A stretch of 11,723 nt of DNA, from contig JAJYGO010000470.1 in the NCBI GenBank assembly GCA_021785115.1, positions 1 to 11,723 of the forward strand, written 5' to 3'. This DNA comes from Chloroflexota bacterium. GTDB taxonomy: Bacteria; Chloroflexota; Limnocylindria; Limnocylindrales; CSP1-4. Position 1 is the first letter of the stretch. Each line of letters opens with the position of its first letter. Below the pieces are notes generated by a model. The model had not been told where the DNA came from, did no database searches, and saw nothing but the letters and a program-made list of their open reading frames with translations. Below, piece by piece: positions 4,860 through 11,723 of the stretch. Both the position numbers and the translations under genes were made by a program.

Positions 4860-4935
4860 TGGCGCGCCCGGCGAGACTCGAACTCACGGCCTTCAGGTCC
4901 GCAACCTGACGCTCTATCCACTGAGCTACGGGCGC
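4860..4935 (-). tRNA. tRNA-Arg, anticodon GCG, CCA encoded
   Basis: The minus strand folds as acceptor GCGCCCG/CGGGCGC (7 bp), D stem GCTC/GAGC, anticodon stem TCAGG/CCTGA with loop TTGCGGA, T stem GTGAG/CTCGC (one G-T pair) with loop TTCGAGT, discriminator G (4863) and CCA (4862-4860). Bases 34-36 are GCG, reading CGC and by wobble CGT. Most bacteria decode this box with tRNA-Arg(ACG) deaminated to ICG by TadA, so an encoded G34 is noteworthy. It lies 9 nt after tRNA-Ser(GCT) and is probably on the same transcript. Confidence 0.95.
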
Positions 4936-4943
4936 CTGGGGAC

Positions 4944-5013
<70 letters not shown>

Positions 5014-5036
<23 letters not shown>

Positions 5037-5511
5037 GCGCGGTGCCGAATGATAGCACCCGGTCACCGCCGACCGCCCCGACGCCCCGCCGGTCCGGTCC
5101 AGTTGTCCGGCCGGGCTCGTGCAGGAGTTCCACCCGGTCGGCCAGCTCGCCGCGGGCGAACGCCAGGGCGGCGGCATCCACGTCGGCGAGGTCCGTCACC
5201 ACGGGTCGCACGCCCAGGGCAGCGAACCGGTCGTAGGCGCCCTGCCCCATGCCGCCCGCGATCATCGCCGCGCAGTCGGCGACCGCCCCGGCCATCTGGT
5301 CGTGGCGGGCCTGGGAGGCGGGGTCGGTGCCGTGTGGTCCCGACCCGCCGTGCGACTCGGGCTCCCCGCCCGCCATGTGCGGCGAGAACTTCGGCCGCAG
5401 CTCACGGGCAACGACGGCTCCGTCCTCCACCGTGAGCACCGCGTAGTAGGGGGCCCGGCCGAAGTGCCGGCTGACGGTGCGACCGTCCTCGGTCGCGATG
5501 GCGATCTTCAT
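5014..5511 (-). CDS. NifX/NifB-type dinitrogenase iron-molybdenum cofactor domain protein
   Basis: A 165-residue protein with the PF02579 fold. It opens with MKIAIATEDGRTVSRHFGRA (1-20), the usual first strand and loop. A His/Gly-rich insert follows (about 44-70, with HMAGG, SHGGSG, PHG, RHDQ), then GGMGQGAYDRF and GVRPVVTD, typical of the second half. In nitrogen fixers this domain carries FeMo-cofactor precursors; stand-alone copies in non-fixers are mostly uncharacterised and are presumed metal or Fe-S cluster binders. No nif gene is present here. The start ATG follows CGGAG by 8 nt, and the gene lies 25 nt after the phosphofructokinase stop, so the two are likely an operon. Oddly, the domain ends near residue 135 and the frame runs on into tRNA-Ser(GCT), using a TAG inside that gene as stop (5016-5014). 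Confidence 0.82.
5049..5054 (-). promoter_or_regulatory. -10 element for tRNA-Ser(GCT)/tRNA-Arg(GCG)
   Basis: TATCAT on the minus strand (5054-5049), inside the 3' end of the NifX-like gene. The expected start is near 5042, just before the tRNA 5' end at 5036. It is framed by GGTGC (5059-5055) and GCACC (5045-5041). No clear -35 is seen. Confidence 0.5.
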
Positions 5512-5536
5512 CTGTCGACTCCGGTTCCGCCGTCGG

Positions 5537-6712
5537 TCAGTCCGCGGTGACCAGCAGCATCGGCCGCCCCGCCCGTCCGCTGTACTGGGGGCGCAGCCGC
5601 TCAAGGTTGTACATGCTCGCGATGTCGACCCTGCGCGGGCCCAGCTTCGGGTCCGGCAGCGGGCTGTGGGTGAAGGTGCCGTTCAGGATCGCGGTCATGC
5701 GTCCCGTCTGCCCTTCCTCGACGAGGTCCAGCGCGATGTTCGCGAAGGTGATCCCCACGATCGTGTCCACGCCGTCGGGATCGCCGCTCCGCAGGTCGTA
5801 GGTGAGCTCGCTGGCGACCGCTTCCTCGCCGGTCCGCCGCTTGATCTCGTCGGCGAGCGCCTCCGCGACGTTCACCTTGTGGCGGTGACCGAAGCTGTCG
5901 ACCTCGCCGTACTCGGCCAGCGCGCCGCCCTCCCAGATCGCGCCCTCGGCGGTGACCACGATCGCGTAGCGGCTCGGGTTGTTCCGCTTGTCCTCGACGA
6001 GCAGCGAGCAGAGCAGGTCCAGGTCGTAGGAGGCCTCGGGGATCACGCAGCGCGTCGACGTCACGTAGGCGGTCAGCAGCGCGGTGAAGCCGGCATCCCG
6101 GCCGAAGATGCGGAAGACGCCGATCCGCTCGTGGGACCCGAGGGTCGTGCGCTGCCGGTTGATCAGCTCCTTGGCCCGGTTGATCGCGGTGGAGAAGCCG
6201 ATGCAGTACTCGGTCCCCTGGACGTCGTTGTCCATCGTCTTGGGGATGCCGATGAGCGGCACGCCGGCGCCGACCAGCGCGTGGGAGAAGCTCTGCGTGT
6301 CGTCCCCGCCGATCGGGATCAGGTAGTCGAGCCCGAGATGCTGGATGTTGTCGAGCACGAGCGGCGTCAGGTCGTAGAGCCCCTCGGCGATCTGCATCGT
6401 GGCCGCGCGCTCGGGCGCGAGCGTCGCAGGCAGCATGCCCCCGGACATCTTGCGCGGGTTCGTCCTGGACGTGTGCAGCCAGGTCCCGCCGGTGCGATCG
6501 ATGGTCCGCGTGTTCCGGCGGTCCAGCCGCACCACGTACTCGGGATCCAGCTCCGGCCCCGGCTTCATGTGGGTGAGCCCTTGCCAGCCCCGCCGGATGC
6601 CGTACACCTCGTACCCGAGCTCGGTGGCGCGGAAGGTCACGCTCTTGATCACGGAATTGAGACCCGGGACGTCCCCCCCGCCGGTCAGGATCCCGATCCG
6701 GTGCGTTGTCAA
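5537..6712 (-). CDS. pfp: Phosphofructokinase, pyrophosphate-dependent type
   Basis: Phosphorylates fructose-6-phosphate at carbon 1, a cytosolic glycolytic step. Positions are counted from the upstream ATG at 6727; subtract 5 for the TTG start. RIGILTGGGDVPGLN (10-24) is the N-terminal phosphoryl-donor loop. IGGDDTQS (139-146) and PKTMDND (162-168) are the key diagnostics: Asp in GGDD and Lys in PKTxDND are the residues that distinguish PPi-using enzymes from ATP-using ones (GGDGS, PGTIDND). IFGRDAG (207-213) and SELTYDLRSGDPDG (306-319) belong to the sugar-phosphate site. I chose TTG 6712-6710 because AGGAG lies 7 nt upstream and family members begin just before RIGILTGG. The alternative ATG at 6727 adds MRRVE and has a poor ribosome-binding site. 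PPi use is inferred from two residues, not shown. Confidence 0.92.
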   Translation of the reverse strand: MTTHRIGILTGGGDVPGLNSVIKSVTFRATELGYEVYGIRRGWQGLTHMKPGPELDPEYVVRLDRRNTRTIDRTGGTWLHTSRTNPRKMSGGMLPATLAPERAATMQIAEGLYDLTPLVLDNIQHLGLDYLIPIGGDDTQSFSHALVGAGVPLIGIPKTMDNDVQGTEYCIGFSTAINRAKELINRQRTTLGSHERIGVFRIFGRDAGFTALLTAYVTSTRCVIPEASYDLDLLCSLLVEDKRNNPSRYAIVVTAEGAIWEGGALAEYGEVDSFGHRHKVNVAEALADEIKRRTGEEAVASELTYDLRSGDPDGVDTIVGITFANIALDLVEEGQTGRMTAILNGTFTHSPLPDPKLGPRRVDIASMYNLERLRPQYSGRAGRPMLLVTAD

Positions 6713-6816
6713 CTCGACTCTCCTCATCGCGACGCGGCCGTGGCTCCGCCGGGTTCGGGACGGGTCACGCCGGGGCTCCGGGCCGGTCGATCATCGGTAG
6801 CGATTCGTCCGACGGC

Positions 6817-6822
6817 ATGGTA
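6817..6822 (-). promoter_or_regulatory. Possible -10 of the phosphofructokinase operon
   Basis: TACCAT on the minus strand (6822-6817), abutted by CGGC and GCCG (6826-6823 and 6816-6813). A 17-nt spacer leads to GATACA (6845-6840), a weak -35 that overlaps the divergent TadA-like -10. The 5' leader would be about 100 nt. Confidence 0.35.
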
Positions 6823-6841
6823 GCCGCCCGACGGTCGCCTG

Positions 6842-6847
6842 TATCAT
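6842..6847 (+). promoter_or_regulatory. -10 element of the TadA-like gene; leaderless start expected
   Basis: TATCAT at 6842-6847 puts the transcription start at about 6854-6855, which is the GTG start codon itself. No Shine-Dalgarno is present. The element is framed by CGGTCG (6832-6837) and CGACCG (6848-6853). No clear -35 is seen. Confidence 0.55.
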
Positions 6848-6854
6848 CGACCGC

Positions 6855-7358
6855 GTGAACTACGAGCTGTTCATGGGCGAGGCGCTCGCCGAGGCCCAGT
6901 ACGCCCTCGAAGACGGCGAGCCGCCCTGCGCCGCGGTGGCGGTCGTCGACGAGGCGATGGTCGCGCGGGCCCGGGACCGGGTCCGCGAATCCGGGGACCC
7001 CACGGCGCACGCGGTGATCGTGGCGATCCGCGAGGCGGCACGGAGGCTCGGACGGGAGCGGCTCGCGGACGTGACCATCTTCACGACCATCGAGCCCTGC
7101 GCCATGTGCGTCGGCGCCCTGCTGCAGGCCAACGTGGAGACGCTGGTCTTCGCCGCGCCCGACACCGTCGACGGTGCCGCGGGCGGGGCGGTGCAGCTGG
7201 CGCAGAGCCCCGGGCTCCGCCGGCGCCTGCGGGTGGTGTCGGGGATCCGACGGGACGAGGTGGAGGACCTGCGAAGCCGCGCCCTGGCGCGGGCCGGGTC
7301 GCCCCGCGCGGAGACCGGGCGCGCCCCCGACGGGCAGGGGACGGGCCAGCAGGCCTGA
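6855..7358 (+). CDS. TadA-like tRNA adenosine deaminase homologue, catalytic Glu missing
   Basis: 167 residues, matching the TadA family from end to end: FMGEALAEAQYALEDGEPP (6-24), DPTAHAV (48-54), TIEPCAMC (78-85), VFAAPDTVDGAAGG (98-111), SPGLRRRLRVVSGI (118-131). In TadA the zinc site is HAE...PCxxC, with the Glu acting as proton shuttle when A34 of tRNA-Arg(ACG) becomes inosine. Here the ligands His52, Cys82 and Cys85 remain, but the Glu is Val54 (codon GTG). The Asn normally found in the WNRP-like stretch is Asp41, and the C-terminal FFR motif that contacts the anticodon loop is absent. The reading frame is intact, so this is not an obvious pseudogene. It may be a non-catalytic paralogue, a tRNA-binding remnant or an enzyme with altered chemistry. 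GTG start, probably leaderless; divergent from the phosphofructokinase gene. Family assignment is firm, activity is doubtful. Confidence 0.88.
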   Translation: MNYELFMGEALAEAQYALEDGEPPCAAVAVVDEAMVARARDRVRESGDPTAHAVIVAIREAARRLGRERLADVTIFTTIEPCAMCVGALLQANVETLVFAAPDTVDGAAGGAVQLAQSPGLRRRLRVVSGIRRDEVEDLRSRALARAGSPRAETGRAPDGQGTGQQA

Positions 7359-7477
7359 CGGGCGCACCCTCACCGGCGCGTGCGGTCACCTCGCCCGGGC
7401 CCGAAGCCGGGCGTCGGACTCCGGCAGCCGGCGGCGGGCGTACCGAGGCGCCGCGCCTCCGGCCCGCGGCGCTTTGG

Positions 7478-7483
7478 TATCCT
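7478..7483 (+). promoter_or_regulatory. -10 element of tRNA-Ser(CGA)/tRNA-Ser(GGA)
   Basis: TATCCT at 7478-7483, 7 nt before the tRNA 5' end, with GCGC on both sides (7469-7472, 7487-7490). No -35 is evident. Apart from this, the 130 nt between the TadA-like stop and the tRNA show no recognisable signal. Confidence 0.45.
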
Positions 7484-7490
7484 CTGGCGC

Positions 7491-7576
<86 letters not shown>

Positions 7577-7601
7577 CGCATCACCGATCGTCGTCGCCCG
7601 C

Positions 7602-7689
7602 GGAGAGGTCGCCTAGTGGCCTAGGGCGCCGCACTGGAAATGCGGTATGGGGCAACCCATCGCGGGTTCAAATCCCGCCCTCTCCGCCA
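7602..7689 (+). tRNA. tRNA-Ser, anticodon GGA, CCA encoded
   Basis: An 88-nt class II tRNA 25 nt after the previous one. Acceptor GGAGAGG/CCTCTCC, anticodon stem CCGCA/TGCGG with loop CTGGAAA (anticodon GGA, codons TCC/TCT), variable arm with ATGGGGCAACCCAT, T arm GCGGG-TTCAAAT-CCCGC, discriminator G and CCA (7687-7689). Confidence 0.96.
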
Positions 7690-7791
7690 CCTCCCCCATG
7701 AGACGGCCCCGCGCCGGCTCTCCGGTGTCTGCGTGTCGTCGGGATGCTGGCCTGCCTCCCGTACCAGTGCCCGGCCGCCGCGGTGTCGAGG

Positions 7792-7803: not shown

Positions 7804-8072
7804 GCCGTGCTAGGTGGGGAGCCAGCGGTGCCCTGTACCTGCAATCCGCTCCAGCAGGGCCGAATTCCCTCCCGAGGTCCGCGTTCTCGAGGGCTCGGGC
7901 GATCGACCGACGTTGAGGATCGGGTCCCGCGCAGCGGCGACGCGTGAACCTCGTCAGGTCCGGAAGGAAGCAGCGATAAACGCTGCTCGCCGGGTGCCGC
8001 GGACAGGCCTGGTCCGAGCCGGTCATCGCCAGGAGCGCGGGGACGTCCCCGATCGACGGAGGGTGCACGGCA
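7804..8072 (+). ncRNA. ffs: Signal recognition particle RNA, large bacterial type
   Basis: RNA of the signal recognition particle, which with Ffh targets nascent membrane and secreted proteins. The conserved domain IV sequence GTCAGGTCCGGAAGGAAGCA (7953-7972) holds the GGAA tetraloop and Ffh-binding region. The 5' part, GTGCTAGGTGGGGAGC then GCGGTGCCCTGTACC and GCAATCCGCT, is the Alu-domain signature of the large Bacillus-like form. The ends pair: GCCGTGC (7804-7810) with GCACGGC (8065-8071). The ~269-nt length fits the large class. The exact ends are inferred from this pairing and the promoter. dnaX follows, as in many Gram-positives. Confidence 0.93.
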
Positions 8073-8144
8073 TATCCAGCACCCCGGGGGACGCCGGCCT
8101 TGCCCGGAGCCCGGCCGACATCCCCCGCGCCCGCGTCCTCCCCG

Positions 8145-8150
8145 TATCAT
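8145..8150 (+). promoter_or_regulatory. -10 element of the dnaX operon
   Basis: TATCAT inside CCCG-TATCAT-CGGG (8141-8154), giving a start near 8157 and a ~78-nt leader before dnaX. Same GTATCATC octamer as for the SRP RNA and TadA-like genes. No -35 is found. Confidence 0.5.
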
Positions 8151-8234
8151 CGGGTGGTACGGGGAGCGGCCCCGGAGGCCGGCGGGGCGTCCGCCCGAGT
8201 GCCGGCCGGACGTCCGCCCCGACTCCAGGAGCCG

Positions 8235-10001
8235 ATGACGCCGACCCCCTCGACCCCGAGCCCCCACAGCGCCGGACCCCACAGCGCCGGACCCCACACC
8301 GCGATCTACCGGCGCTGGCGCGCCCAGACCTTCTCCCAGATCGTCGGCCAGGCGGCCGTGGTGGAGACCCTGCGGAACGCGGTCCGGCTGGGCCGTGTCG
8401 GGCACGCCTACCTCTTCGTCGGACCCCGCGGGACCGGGAAGACGTCGATGGCGCGCATCCTGGCCAAGGCGGTCAACTGCACCGCCCTGGTGGACGGGGA
8501 GCCGTGCGACGCCTGCCCGAGCTGCGTGGCGATCCGCGAGGGGACGGCACTCGACGTGGCGGAGTTCGACGCGGCCTCCAACAACACGGTCAACGACATG
8601 CGCGAGCTGCTGCCGCGCGTGCACACGGCCCCCGCGGACCTGCGGCGCAAGGTCTTCATCGTCGACGAAGTCCAGCGGATCAAGGAGGGCTGGGACGTCC
8701 TCCTCAAGACGCTCGAGGAGCCGCCCCCGCACGTCCTGTTCGTCTTCTGCACCACCGACCCGACCCAGATCCGGCCGGCCGTGCTCTCCCGCGTGCAGCG
8801 CTTCAACTTCCGTCCGCTCACGGTCGACGAGATCGTCGGGAAGCTCGACAGGATCCTGGCCGACGACGGGCGGCGCGCGGATCCCGATGCGGTCCGCCTG
8901 GTGGCGGAGCTCGCGGCCGGCGGCATGCGCGACGCGGAGTCGATGCTCGACCAGCTGCTGAGCACAGCGGCCGAGGTGCTGACCGCCGACGGCGTGCGGG
9001 CCCAGCTCGGGCTGGCGGCCTCGGGGGAGGTGGACGCCCTGGTGACGGCCCTGCTCGAGGGGGACGTCCTTGCCGGGATCCGCGTCCTGGACCGGCTGGA
9101 GGCCGAGGGTCGAGATCTGCGCCTCGCAATCGACCAGGCGATCGATCGCCTCCGGCGGCTCCTGTTCGCCCGGCTCGCATCCGAGCCGGTCCCTTCGCCG
9201 TTCGCCTCGGCACCCCTGGCCGAGCTCGTCGCCGCGGTCCGGGGCCTCGCCTCCCTCGACACGACCCGGGCGGGCGGCGGCCGTCAGCGGGTCCAGCTCG
9301 AGCTGCTGCTCCTCCAGCGCGCCGCGGCGTCGCCCACCGTGCAGCCGAAGCCGCATCCGGCGCCCGCCGTACGACCGCAGGAGCAGGTGCCGGCGCCGCA
9401 CGTGCCCGCACCGACCGCTGCACCGCGCGCGCAGGCCGAGCCGCCTGCCTCACCGGTCCCCGGCCGGGCCTCCGTCGCGTCCCGCCGGGAAGCAGCCGCC
9501 CCGTCGCCGCCGAGTACCGGGGTTGCTGCCCCGCCGGGCAGAGCCGGAGCTGCACCTGCCGGGAGCCGGGCGCCCGCCACGGCTGCGGTGTCCGCGGCCG
9601 ACGCGGCTGGCTCCGTTCCGCAGCCGGCCACGCCCGCCGGGCAGGACGACCTGCTGGACCGCGTCCGGGTCGGCTGGCCTGCGATCGTCGCCGCGCTCTC
9701 GCGCACGCCGCTCGTGAAGCCGCTGGCGGAGGCGTGCCGCCCCGTCCGGCTCGACGGGCACGTGGTCGTGCTCGGGTTCCCCGAGGACAAGGCGTTCATG
9801 CGGGAGAAGGCCGAGCAGCGGCACGTGGCGTTCGAGGACGCCATCGCGGCCGTCGTGGGTACCACCGTCGGCGTCCGCTGCGTGGCCACCAACCTCGAGC
9901 TGCTGCCCCCGCTCCCGCACGAGGCGATCGGCCGCGACAACCTCGACGCGGCGCGCCGCATCTTCGCCGGCGACCTCGCGGACGCGGTGGACGTGGAGTG
10001 A
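8235..10001 (+). CDS. dnaX: DNA polymerase III subunit gamma/tau
   Basis: Clamp-loader ATPase of the replisome, 588 residues. After a low-complexity N-terminus comes IYRRWRAQTFSQIVGQ (24-39), the usual family start. Walker A is GPRGTGKTS (63-71). The zinc module has Cys82, Cys91, Cys94 and Cys97. Walker B is VFIVDE (140-145), continuing DEVQ where DEVH is usual. The SRC motif reads SRV (185-187), keeping the arginine finger. GGMRDAESMLDQ (229-240) is sensor 2. Residues ~365-470 are a Pro/Ala-rich linker, followed by a folded C-terminal domain (471-588) in the tau position. ATG 8235 is preceded by AGGAG, though only 3 nt away. The frame is open further upstream but shows no family similarity there. 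No A-rich slippery sequence for gamma production was seen. First gene of dnaX-ebfC-recR. Confidence 0.95.
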   Translation: MTPTPSTPSPHSAGPHSAGPHTAIYRRWRAQTFSQIVGQAAVVETLRNAVRLGRVGHAYLFVGPRGTGKTSMARILAKAVNCTALVDGEPCDACPSCVAIREGTALDVAEFDAASNNTVNDMRELLPRVHTAPADLRRKVFIVDEVQRIKEGWDVLLKTLEEPPPHVLFVFCTTDPTQIRPAVLSRVQRFNFRPLTVDEIVGKLDRILADDGRRADPDAVRLVAELAAGGMRDAESMLDQLLSTAAEVLTADGVRAQLGLAASGEVDALVTALLEGDVLAGIRVLDRLEAEGRDLRLAIDQAIDRLRRLLFARLASEPVPSPFASAPLAELVAAVRGLASLDTTRAGGGRQRVQLELLLLQRAAASPTVQPKPHPAPAVRPQEQVPAPHVPAPTAAPRAQAEPPASPVPGRASVASRREAAAPSPPSTGVAAPPGRAGAAPAGSRAPATAAVSAADAAGSVPQPATPAGQDDLLDRVRVGWPAIVAALSRTPLVKPLAEACRPVRLDGHVVVLGFPEDKAFMREKAEQRHVAFEDAIAAVVGTTVGVRCVATNLELLPPLPHEAIGRDNLDAARRIFAGDLADAVDVE

Positions 10002-10053: not shown

Positions 10054-10359
10054 ATGAGCTTCGGGAACCTGGCGAAGATGGCACAGCAGATGCAGACGCA
10101 GCTGGCCCGCGTGCAGGCCGAGCTGGAGACGCTGCAGCTCGAAGGGACCGCGGGCGGTGGTGCCGTGAAGGCCGTCGTCACGGGCAAGCAGGAGCTGGTC
10201 TCGGTCACCATCGACCCGGGCGTGGTCGATCCTGACGACGTCGAGATGCTGCAGGACCTCGTGGTTGCCGCGGTGAACGAGGCGCTCGGCAGTGCCCGTC
10301 GCACGGCCGAGCAGAAGATGGCCGCGGTGACCGGCGGCATGCGACTGCCCGGGATGTGA
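10054..10359 (+). CDS. ebfC: YbaB/EbfC family nucleoid-associated protein
   Basis: A 101-residue DNA-binding protein of the YbaB/EbfC family, small dimeric proteins linked to nucleoid organisation and often found between dnaX and recR. MSFGNLAKMAQQMQTQLARV (1-20) is the usual amphipathic, coiled-coil-prone start. The central VKAVVTGKQELVSVTIDPGV and the C-terminal LVVAAVNEALGSARRTAEQK are typical. It has a strong AGGAGG ribosome-binding site 5-6 nt before ATG. It lies 52 nt after dnaX and 7 nt before recR, so the three are very likely co-transcribed. It probably works with RecR and DnaX in DNA maintenance, though that role is not well established for the family. Confidence 0.95.
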   Translation: MSFGNLAKMAQQMQTQLARVQAELETLQLEGTAGGGAVKAVVTGKQELVSVTIDPGVVDPDDVEMLQDLVVAAVNEALGSARRTAEQKMAAVTGGMRLPGM

Positions 10360-10366
10360 GGCGGCT

Positions 10367-10999
10367 GTGAGCGTGGTCGTCGAGCCGGTCGCCCGGCTCA
10401 TCGAGGCGTTCGCCCGGCTGCCCGGGATCGGGCCCAAGACGGCGCAGCGGCTGACCTACCACATGCTGCGCAGCCCCGAAGGTGAGGCGCGCGCGCTGGC
10501 GACGGCGCTCATCGCGGTGAAGGAGGACGTGGTGTTCTGCACGTCCTGCTTCAATTTCAGCATCGGGCCCCTCTGTCCCATCTGCCTGGACCCCGGGCGG
10601 GACGACACGCGTCTCTGCGTGGTCGAGGACGCCCTGGACGTGCTGGCGCTGGAGCGGACCAGCGCCTTCCGGGGCCGGTACCACGTGCTGCACGGTGCCA
10701 TCTCCCCCATCGACGGGATCGGTCCGGAGCGGCTCCGCGTGCGCGAGCTGCTCGACCGGGCGCTCGACGCGGAGGCGCGCGGCGAGCCGTTCGCCGAGGT
10801 GATCCTGGCCACCAACCCGACCCTGGAGGGCGAGGCGACGGCGCTGTACCTCGCCGAGCGCCTGGCCGGGCACGTGGGCGCGGTGACCCGGATCGCCCGC
10901 GGGATCCCCGTTGGCGGCGATCTCGAGTACGCGGACGAGGTGACGCTGGTGCGCGCGCTGCAGGGCCGCCGATCGATCGAGGAGGCGTCGGACCGATGA
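10367..10999 (+). CDS. recR: Recombination mediator RecR
   Basis: RecFOR-pathway protein that helps load RecA at gaps, cytosolic, 210 residues (family about 200). The N-terminal helix-hairpin-helix is seen in LPGIGPKTAQRL (18-29). The zinc finger has Cys58, Cys61, Cys70 and Cys73 (CTSC...CPIC). The Toprim domain runs from LCVVED (83-88) through HGAISPIDGIGP (109-120) and ATNPTLEGEATALY (148-161). The C-terminal ARGIPVGGDLEYADEVTLVRALQGRR (177-202) is a strong family signature. The start is GTG at 10367, 7 nt after ebfC, without a strong ribosome-binding site, so it is probably translationally coupled. Its TGA overlaps the next gene's ATG (ATGA, 10996-10999). Confidence 0.97.
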   Translation: MSVVVEPVARLIEAFARLPGIGPKTAQRLTYHMLRSPEGEARALATALIAVKEDVVFCTSCFNFSIGPLCPICLDPGRDDTRLCVVEDALDVLALERTSAFRGRYHVLHGAISPIDGIGPERLRVRELLDRALDAEARGEPFAEVILATNPTLEGEATALYLAERLAGHVGAVTRIARGIPVGGDLEYADEVTLVRALQGRRSIEEASDR

Positions 11000-11621: not shown

Positions 11622-11646
11622 CCGACCGCAAGGTCGGTTTCTTTTC
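11622..11646 (+). terminator. Terminator-like hairpin just before 16S rRNA
   Basis: CCGACC (11622-11627), GCAA tetraloop, GGTCGG (11632-11637), then TTTCTTTTC. It has the form of a weak intrinsic terminator but lies inside the rRNA leader after boxA. It is more likely a processing or leader stem that antiterminated polymerase passes. Confidence 0.45.
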
Positions 11647-11723
11647 GGAGAGTTTGATCCTGGCTCAGGATAAACGCTGGCGGCGTGCATGAGACATGTA
11701 AGTCGTACGAGTCTTCGGGCTTG
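11642..11723 (+). rRNA. rrs: 16S ribosomal RNA, first ~82 nt, cut by the window edge
   Basis: AGAGTTTGATCCTGGCTCAG (11649-11668) is the universal bacterial 16S 5' sequence, followed by GATAAACGCTGGCGGCGTGC. By alignment with E. coli position 8, the mature 5' end should be near 11642. The next bases, CATGAGACATGTAAGTCG, have GTAAGTCG where GCAAGTCG is usual. Phylum-level placement from this fragment (Chloroflexota-like) is tentative. Confidence 0.97.

Follow-up and report, generated by a model that had tools for sequence, protein, structure and literature searches.

After the wobble base of its tRNA-Arg changed from A34 to G34, a lineage of Candidatus Limnocylindria has, with good probability, kept its tadA orthologue as a zinc-stabilised, non-catalytic pseudoenzyme. 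The gene studied here lies at positions 6855 to 7358 of the window (the whole stretch of DNA analysed, 11,723 nucleotides), and comparison with relatives identifies it as a vertically inherited tadA orthologue and not a paralogue; the genome belongs to Candidatus Limnocylindria (Chloroflexota), order probably Candidatus Limnocylindrales. A34 is the usual bacterial substrate base of TadA. The tRNA-Arg gene in the same window, which the original prediction had missed, has the anticodon GCG and thus offers no A34 for TadA to edit. Proteins of this clade in all likelihood have no A-to-I activity and very probably retain a non-catalytic function. These findings would connect the loss of activity of a modification enzyme with the disappearance of the base that it modifies, and provide a bacterial parallel to the Glu-to-Val replacement of ADAT3 in which the use of an inactive TadA is testable with a small protein.

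The tadA locus and its product

The features of the window that bear on this reading are as follows.

4860..4935, reverse strand: tRNA-Arg, anticodon GCG (not ACG), with G34 instead of A34/I34, from a tRNA gene call
4945..5036, reverse strand: tRNA-Ser(GCT), which forms a pair with the tRNA-Arg gene; it occurs in 39 of the 41 related loci with a tRNA-Arg(GCG)
6855..7358, forward strand: Glu-less TadA (pseudo-TadA), 167 amino acids, GTG start, recognized as an ORF and from profile and structure matches
6975..6977, forward strand: Asp41 (codon GAC), replacing the base-contacting Asn
7008..7016, forward strand: His52-Ala53-Val54 (HAV), replacing HAE; His52 is 7008-7010 (CAC) and Val54 is 7014-7016 (GTG)
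7098..7109, forward strand: zinc ligands Cys82-x-x-Cys85; Cys82 is 7098-7100 and Cys85 is 7107-7109
7491..7576, forward strand: tRNA-Ser(CGA), downstream of the pseudo-tadA gene and present in 73 of 80 related loci
7602..7689, forward strand: tRNA-Ser(GGA), present in 66 of 80 related loci
7805..8070, forward strand: SRP RNA (scr, large bacterial type; Rfam RF01854, 184.5 bits)
8100..10001, forward strand: dnaX (Pfam DNA_pol3_delta2 and DnaX_C); the listed start is mechanical and the true start may be further in
10054..10359, forward strand: ybaB/yaaK (Pfam YbaB_DNA_bd, 4.3e-33)
10367..10999, forward strand: recR (Pfam Toprim_4, RecR_HhH and RecR_C)

That the gene encodes a TadA homologue, as first predicted, was borne out by profile and structure matches and by its place in the ancestral tadA locus. 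The protein matches Pfam families PF00383 (2e-21) and PF14437 (6.6e-21) and the NCBIfam TadA model (3.6e-31), to which its 108 bits fall below the cut-off of 150. This shortfall was not taken to mean inactivity: L164, a sister-lineage TadA that has HAE, scores 134.6 bits and misses the cut-off as well. An AF2 model based on 72 aligned sequences reached a pLDDT of 92.2 and a pTM of 0.85; the 22 best Foldseek rows were all TadA-type structures, engineered ones among them, and the closest were those of A. aeolicus (1wwr) and S. aureus (2b3j), with TM scores of 0.8-0.9. The gene is followed on its 3' side by tRNA-Ser(CGA), tRNA-Ser(GGA), SRP RNA, dnaX, ybaB and recR, an order that matches the yaaJ-scr-dnaX-yaaK-recR order reported for B. 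subtilis (PMC10454642) with two tRNA-Ser genes in between.

Compared with bacterial TadA (B. subtilis YaaJ, E. coli TadA, 1wwr and 2b3j), the window protein shares the fold (TM 0.8-0.9), the zinc ligands, the DPTAH and EPCxMC motifs and the ancestral gene order. Its clade differs in having Val or Ile for the Glu and mostly Asp for the base-contacting Asn, and in the loss of K/R105, N122 and the C-terminal FF; in addition, an A34 tRNA was not found among the tRNAs read in the window genome. The protein start (M/V)NYEL is common to the window protein and its relatives. The promoter of its own that had been ascribed to the gene was not confirmed, in that no sigma-70 consensus was found within 6700-7700 of the window; since the upstream gene is divergent, a promoter within 6728-6854 is nevertheless implied.

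Elsewhere in the window, a 16S rRNA gene is cut off by the window's end, leaving its 5' part at 11642-11723, and a dinitrogenase FeMo-cofactor-type domain protein (PF02579, 3.3e-14) is encoded on the reverse strand at 5014-5604; the listed frame of the latter overlaps a phosphofructokinase ORF, and the protein probably starts further in than listed.

Fate of the catalytic glutamate and the tRNA contacts

Replacement of the proton-shuttling Glu by Val54 with retention of the zinc ligands His52, Cys82 and Cys85, noted at the outset for a single protein, proved to be general. In a joint alignment, position 54 was Val in 202, Ile in six and Glu in none of 208 Glu-less homologues (the window protein plus sets of 120, 80 and seven proteins, whose organisms partly overlap), and H52, C82 and C85 were each present in 208/208. 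Glu occupied this position in 148/148 Glu-type TadAs, a comparison set that one lineage dominates, 120 of its members being from the sister lineage. Val54 was fixed among relatives apart from a few Ile and one Thr: the best 120 of 3578 database homologues had 118 Val and two Ile; 80 species loci (kept from 220 found) had 71 HAV (one taken from printed context), five HPV and four HAI, with PCxxC in all; HAV was found in 7/7 genomes of a family of the same class as the window genome (f3); and seven further genomes of the window's own family (f1) had six HAV and one HAI. A search of 40 relatives recovered 20 homologues, comprising 18 HAV, one HPV and one HAT (Thr in G017). The titles returned in the 80-locus search were nearly all Chloroflexi or Chloroflexota, with one Thermomicrobiales and one Anaerolinea. 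The 120 proteins were those nearest to the window protein and the 80 loci were found through patterns of the Glu-less alignment, so that both sample TadA unevenly, unlike the phylum-wide TadA-model search described below, which samples it evenly. A sequencing error at the Val54 codon was also considered and was rejected, as the loss of the Glu is fixed across separate assemblies.

A tree was built from 55 selected proteins, rooted at the midpoint and without ADAT3. In it, a single branch (support 100/100, length 1.15) separates all 25 Glu-less rows from the others; among them, the seven f3 rows form a starred group (100/98) and the remaining rows are those of f1. The Glu-less TadAs are thus, on this tree, one clade spanning the two families.

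The frame is intact, as originally described: the ORF is real, and 80/80 species loci are open from the start of the match to the stop, with the match beginning at residue 1 in 79 of them and at residue 35 in one (L264). In L264 and in L050 (G012), the first ~34 residues are unlike the family and the remainder matches, which points to a changed or broken gene start. The ratio dN/dS was 0.053-0.124 over 15 within-genus pairs (Nei-Gojobori, first 140 codons), with dS mostly 0.6-1.2 and hence close to saturation; on these estimates, the clade is under purifying selection. Furthermore, at 24 positions, 54 among them, at least 90% of the clade shares a residue that differs from the Glu-type consensus. 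The most clade-specific of the fixed residues are N2, Y3 (197/197), L5, M35, F76, V86, Q114 and S129, while some others also occur in Glu types (G130 in 64/148, A100 in 30/148). Such newly fixed residues indicate a new constraint rather than decay. A pseudogene was rejected on the grounds of the open frames, the dN/dS of 0.05-0.12 and the newly fixed positions, and the earlier view of a retained but apparently dead TadA is strengthened by this purifying selection together with the absence of the Glu and the invariance of the zinc ligands.

The changes extend to the residues by which TadA recognizes its tRNA. According to PMC8216470, N42 of TadA contacts the base, the 32-38 pair is read by K106 and N123, and binding of the anticodon loop depends on the long C-terminal helix; the window numbering, by alignment, is that of this source minus one. 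At position 41, N in 148/148 Glu-type proteins is replaced by D in 184/208 Glu-less proteins, the other 24 including N (six), E (four), H (four), R (three) and Q (three), so the Asp41 first seen in the window protein is typical of its clade. Position 105 is K or R in 148/148 Glu types and V, E or D in 123/208 Glu-less proteins, with R kept in 18, and position 122 changes from N (147/148) to P, R or G (158/208). Two further positions behave similarly: 143, which is F or Y in 148/148 Glu types and A and others in the Glu-less proteins, and 93, with R in 147/148 and D in 160/208. The absence of a C-terminal FFR motif, also part of the original prediction, recurs in relatives, FF past residue 120 being present in 118/120 sister-lineage TadAs and in 0/120 of the nearest homologues of the window protein. 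Judged by these alignments, contacts to the anticodon loop have been lost in the Glu-less clade, as has the terminal FF of the C-terminal helix. Net charge fails to separate the Glu-less and Glu-type groups (medians of -5 and -3).

Substrate tRNA and TadA type across the Chloroflexota

Thirty-two tRNA matches were found in the window genome (84% complete), and 31 of these were read. The Arg anticodons among them were GCG, CCG, TCG and TCT, and neither ACG nor any other A34 tRNA was found. Of 41 genomes (this one and 40 relatives), 32 yielded tRNA-Arg(GCG), namely 23/25 of f1 and 9/16 of a second family of the same order (f2), and no tRNA-Arg(ACG) was found in the 70 loci read from them (three loci held no tRNA, and weaker BLAST matches were excluded). 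A second anticodon pattern recovered neither GCG nor ACG from the nine remaining genomes. In the 80 species loci, 41/41 tRNA-Arg genes were GCG and none ACG. Arginine codons in eight window genes comprised 120 CGC, 97 CGG, 20 CGU, 12 CGA, seven AGG and two AGA. GCG and UCG tRNA-Arg have been described as enough for the CGN box (PMC3711424); as the window genome also has tRNA-Arg(TCG) and tRNA-Arg(CCG), its CGN codons need no inosine. The absence of the A34 substrate base explains why loss of the supposedly essential TadA activity would be tolerated. In B. subtilis, tadA has been reported to be dispensable in the laboratory (PMC10454642).

We examined the relation between TadA type and anticodon across the phylum: a sample comprising 241 genomes of Chloroflexota was searched with the TadA model, and 22 of them exceed the TadA cut-off. 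Among the best 30 TadA-model loci, 28 were HAE, one was HAV (G080, of f3) and one (G157, 144.8 bits) had a motif unreadable by script and was excluded from both counts. The 28 HAE genomes read had tRNA-Arg(ACG) in 23/23 cases where an ACG or GCG tRNA-Arg was recovered, 18 by a short pattern, four by a second pattern and one (G226) by tRNA call; neither ACG nor GCG was recovered in the other five (G174, G141, G178, G231 and G262). All 21 Glu-less genomes in the sample (14 of f1 and seven of f3) had GCG and no ACG match. The association of HAE with ACG and of the Glu-less state with GCG gave a Fisher p of 5e-13, a value that overstates independence, as the Glu-less state may be one event. The phylum anticodons are pattern matches, confirmed by ARAGORN for part only. 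By hand count, 115 of the 136 genomes listed had GCG and 21 had ACG; eight further matching genomes lie outside this listing, and 97/241 had no match to the anticodon pattern. Leaving aside G226 and the Glu-less genomes, 93 listed genomes have GCG; no TadA-model match above 85 bits was found in them, and by this measure they seem to have lost TadA.

G226, in which GCG accompanies an HAE TadA, is an exception in appearance only, since ACG is also present: tRNA-Arg(ACG) and tRNA-Arg(GCG) stand in tandem at L271:1417-1570, adjoining tRNA-Ser(GCT) and tRNA-Ser(TGA), and this tandem is a plausible intermediate of the A34-to-G34 swap. Two genomes run against the rule, with no TadA-grade match: G206, which has ACG by both patterns, and G161, which has it by the short pattern only and not by the second pattern or a tRNA call. 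These may be incomplete assemblies or cases of unmodified A34 decoding. A PTAHAE DNA pattern run over the 241 genomes was uninformative, with matches in 59 genomes and, for the reversed control, also in many. Its matches in G000 and G006 were not accepted as HAE TadAs, no HxE...PCxxC having been found by motif script in the loci concerned (L189 and L190).

The protein is also not universal among relatives. No TadA-like protein was found in 16/16 genomes of f2, which belong to one genus with small genomes (~1 Mb, 67-92% complete), and the nine in which tRNA-Arg(GCG) was read are among these (G025-G040). Within f1, the Glu-less TadA was absent from 4/25 genomes (54-79% complete) and from the genome G169 (94%). 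The protein is thus dispensable somewhere, and even within the order a new role would not be shared by all members.

A second TadA with HAE was sought in the window genome (84% complete) and none was found, the sole other match being weak, at 23 bits. Beside the Glu-less protein, a second match to the TadA model occurred in 5/14 f1 and 4/7 f3 genomes and was lacking in 9/14 and 3/7, respectively. Additional HAE, HGE or HSE deaminases were seen in L184-L188 (G097, G071, G061, G048 and G245), and the three that were placed in a tree had long branches.

Probable retained function and its alternatives

Our best explanation begins with the observation, by comparison, that most Chloroflexota genomes with a recovered tRNA carry tRNA-Arg(GCG). 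With A34 gone, TadA catalysis would have been free to be lost and most such lineages may have dropped the gene; in the ancestor of the two Candidatus Limnocylindria families, Glu would have given way to Val, with loss of the anticodon-loop contacts and the FF end. Comparison of the present-day sequences shows that the protein has remained under purifying selection, with an invariant zinc site and new residues fixed. The product would be a zinc-stabilised binding protein, with zinc ligands but no proton shuttle and with a remodelled former tRNA face, and its likeliest role would be that of a scaffold or regulatory partner, or of a small-ligand sensor. The new role put forward in the original prediction is supported in that conservation speaks for a retained function, whereas the role itself is something that we infer. 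Scaffolding or ligand binding is moderately favoured over tRNA binding.

The closest known parallel is eukaryotic ADAT3 (Tad3), the inactive partner of ADAT2. ADAT3 has Val in place of the Glu, a shortened C-terminal helix and a capped zinc pocket, and has lost the anticodon pockets (PMC8216470). The clade likewise shows Glu to Val, kept zinc ligands and loss of the C-terminal helix end and anticodon contacts. In contrast to ADAT3, the window protein is without an N-terminal ferredoxin-like domain, a general ADAT2-like active partner was not found in the clade genomes examined, and the clade groups with Chloroflexota TadAs in the tree (with no ADAT3 included). The Glu-less clade is therefore likely, as far as sequence can tell, to have arisen independently of ADAT3. 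The same comparison bears on the idea that the protein is an ADAT3-like non-catalytic subunit paired with another active deaminase of the genome. This idea gains from the same Glu-to-Val change, kept zinc ligands and shortened C-terminal helix of ADAT3 (PMC8216470), from the appearance of mouse ADAT3 among the sequence relatives (7nz7_B, 5.7e-10), from the HAE, HGE or HSE deaminases in the five genomes named above and from the further TadA-model matches in f1 and f3; nevertheless, no A34 tRNA to edit was found in the tRNAs read, the only other match in the window genome is weak and 9/14 f1 and 3/7 f3 genomes are without a second match, so that we regard it as quite improbable, and membership of an ADAT3-like heterodimer appears not to be supported. 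It is also very improbable that the protein is still an enzyme, with another residue such as Asp41 moving protons or with the zinc site performing other chemistry on another substrate. While the zinc ligands are invariant (208/208) and a carboxylate, Asp41, occupies the former base-contacting Asn position in 184/208, a catalytic replacement should be fixed like the zinc ligands, and Asp41 varies within the clade, whereas position 54 is always V or I (208/208).

A non-catalytic tRNA chaperone, binding an anticodon arm (for example that of tRNA-Arg(GCG) or of a tRNA-Ser encoded nearby) but leaving it unmodified, would fit descent from a tRNA-binding enzyme and the presence of tRNA-Ser(CGA) in 73/80 and tRNA-Arg(GCG) in 41/80 loci. 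This neighbourhood is, however, the ancestral tadA locus, so that linkage says little, and the clade has lost the contacts checked at positions 41, 105 and 122 together with the terminal FF of the C-terminal helix; we consider the chaperone unlikely. The absence of the gene from 16/16 f2 genomes, the want of a TadA-grade match in the 93 other listed GCG genomes of the phylum sample and the lack of a known function for the protein could also mean that a dispensable gene is decaying and simply still present. Such a remnant is extremely unlikely given the frames open in 80/80 species loci (with the match from residue 1 in 79), the dN/dS of 0.05-0.12, the invariant zinc ligands and the 24 positions, 54 included, that are at least 90% fixed and differ from the Glu-type consensus.

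Returning to the retained binding protein, we place at slightly better than even the chance that, once A34 had become G34, an ADAT3-type pseudo-deaminase arose independently from TadA in this lineage and was co-opted for a new binding function, conserved and absent from any known TadA-fold protein. Decoding with tRNA-Arg(GCG) in the absence of TadA has been described for some Mollicutes, Thermotogae and Spirochaetes, where the swap from A34 to G34 together with tRNA-Arg(UCG) likewise removes the need for inosine (PMC3711424, PMC8007984). In the Mollicutes, tadA is reported to have mutated and then been lost (PMC3711424), whereas the lineage described here retains the protein in a conserved form that lacks the Glu. 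Among the titles and abstract openings of the literature searched, which covers subscription journals thinly, none named a bacterial TadA that is conserved yet without the Glu. Many proteins of the clade carry the database name 'tRNA(adenine34) deaminase', which for them is probably wrong.
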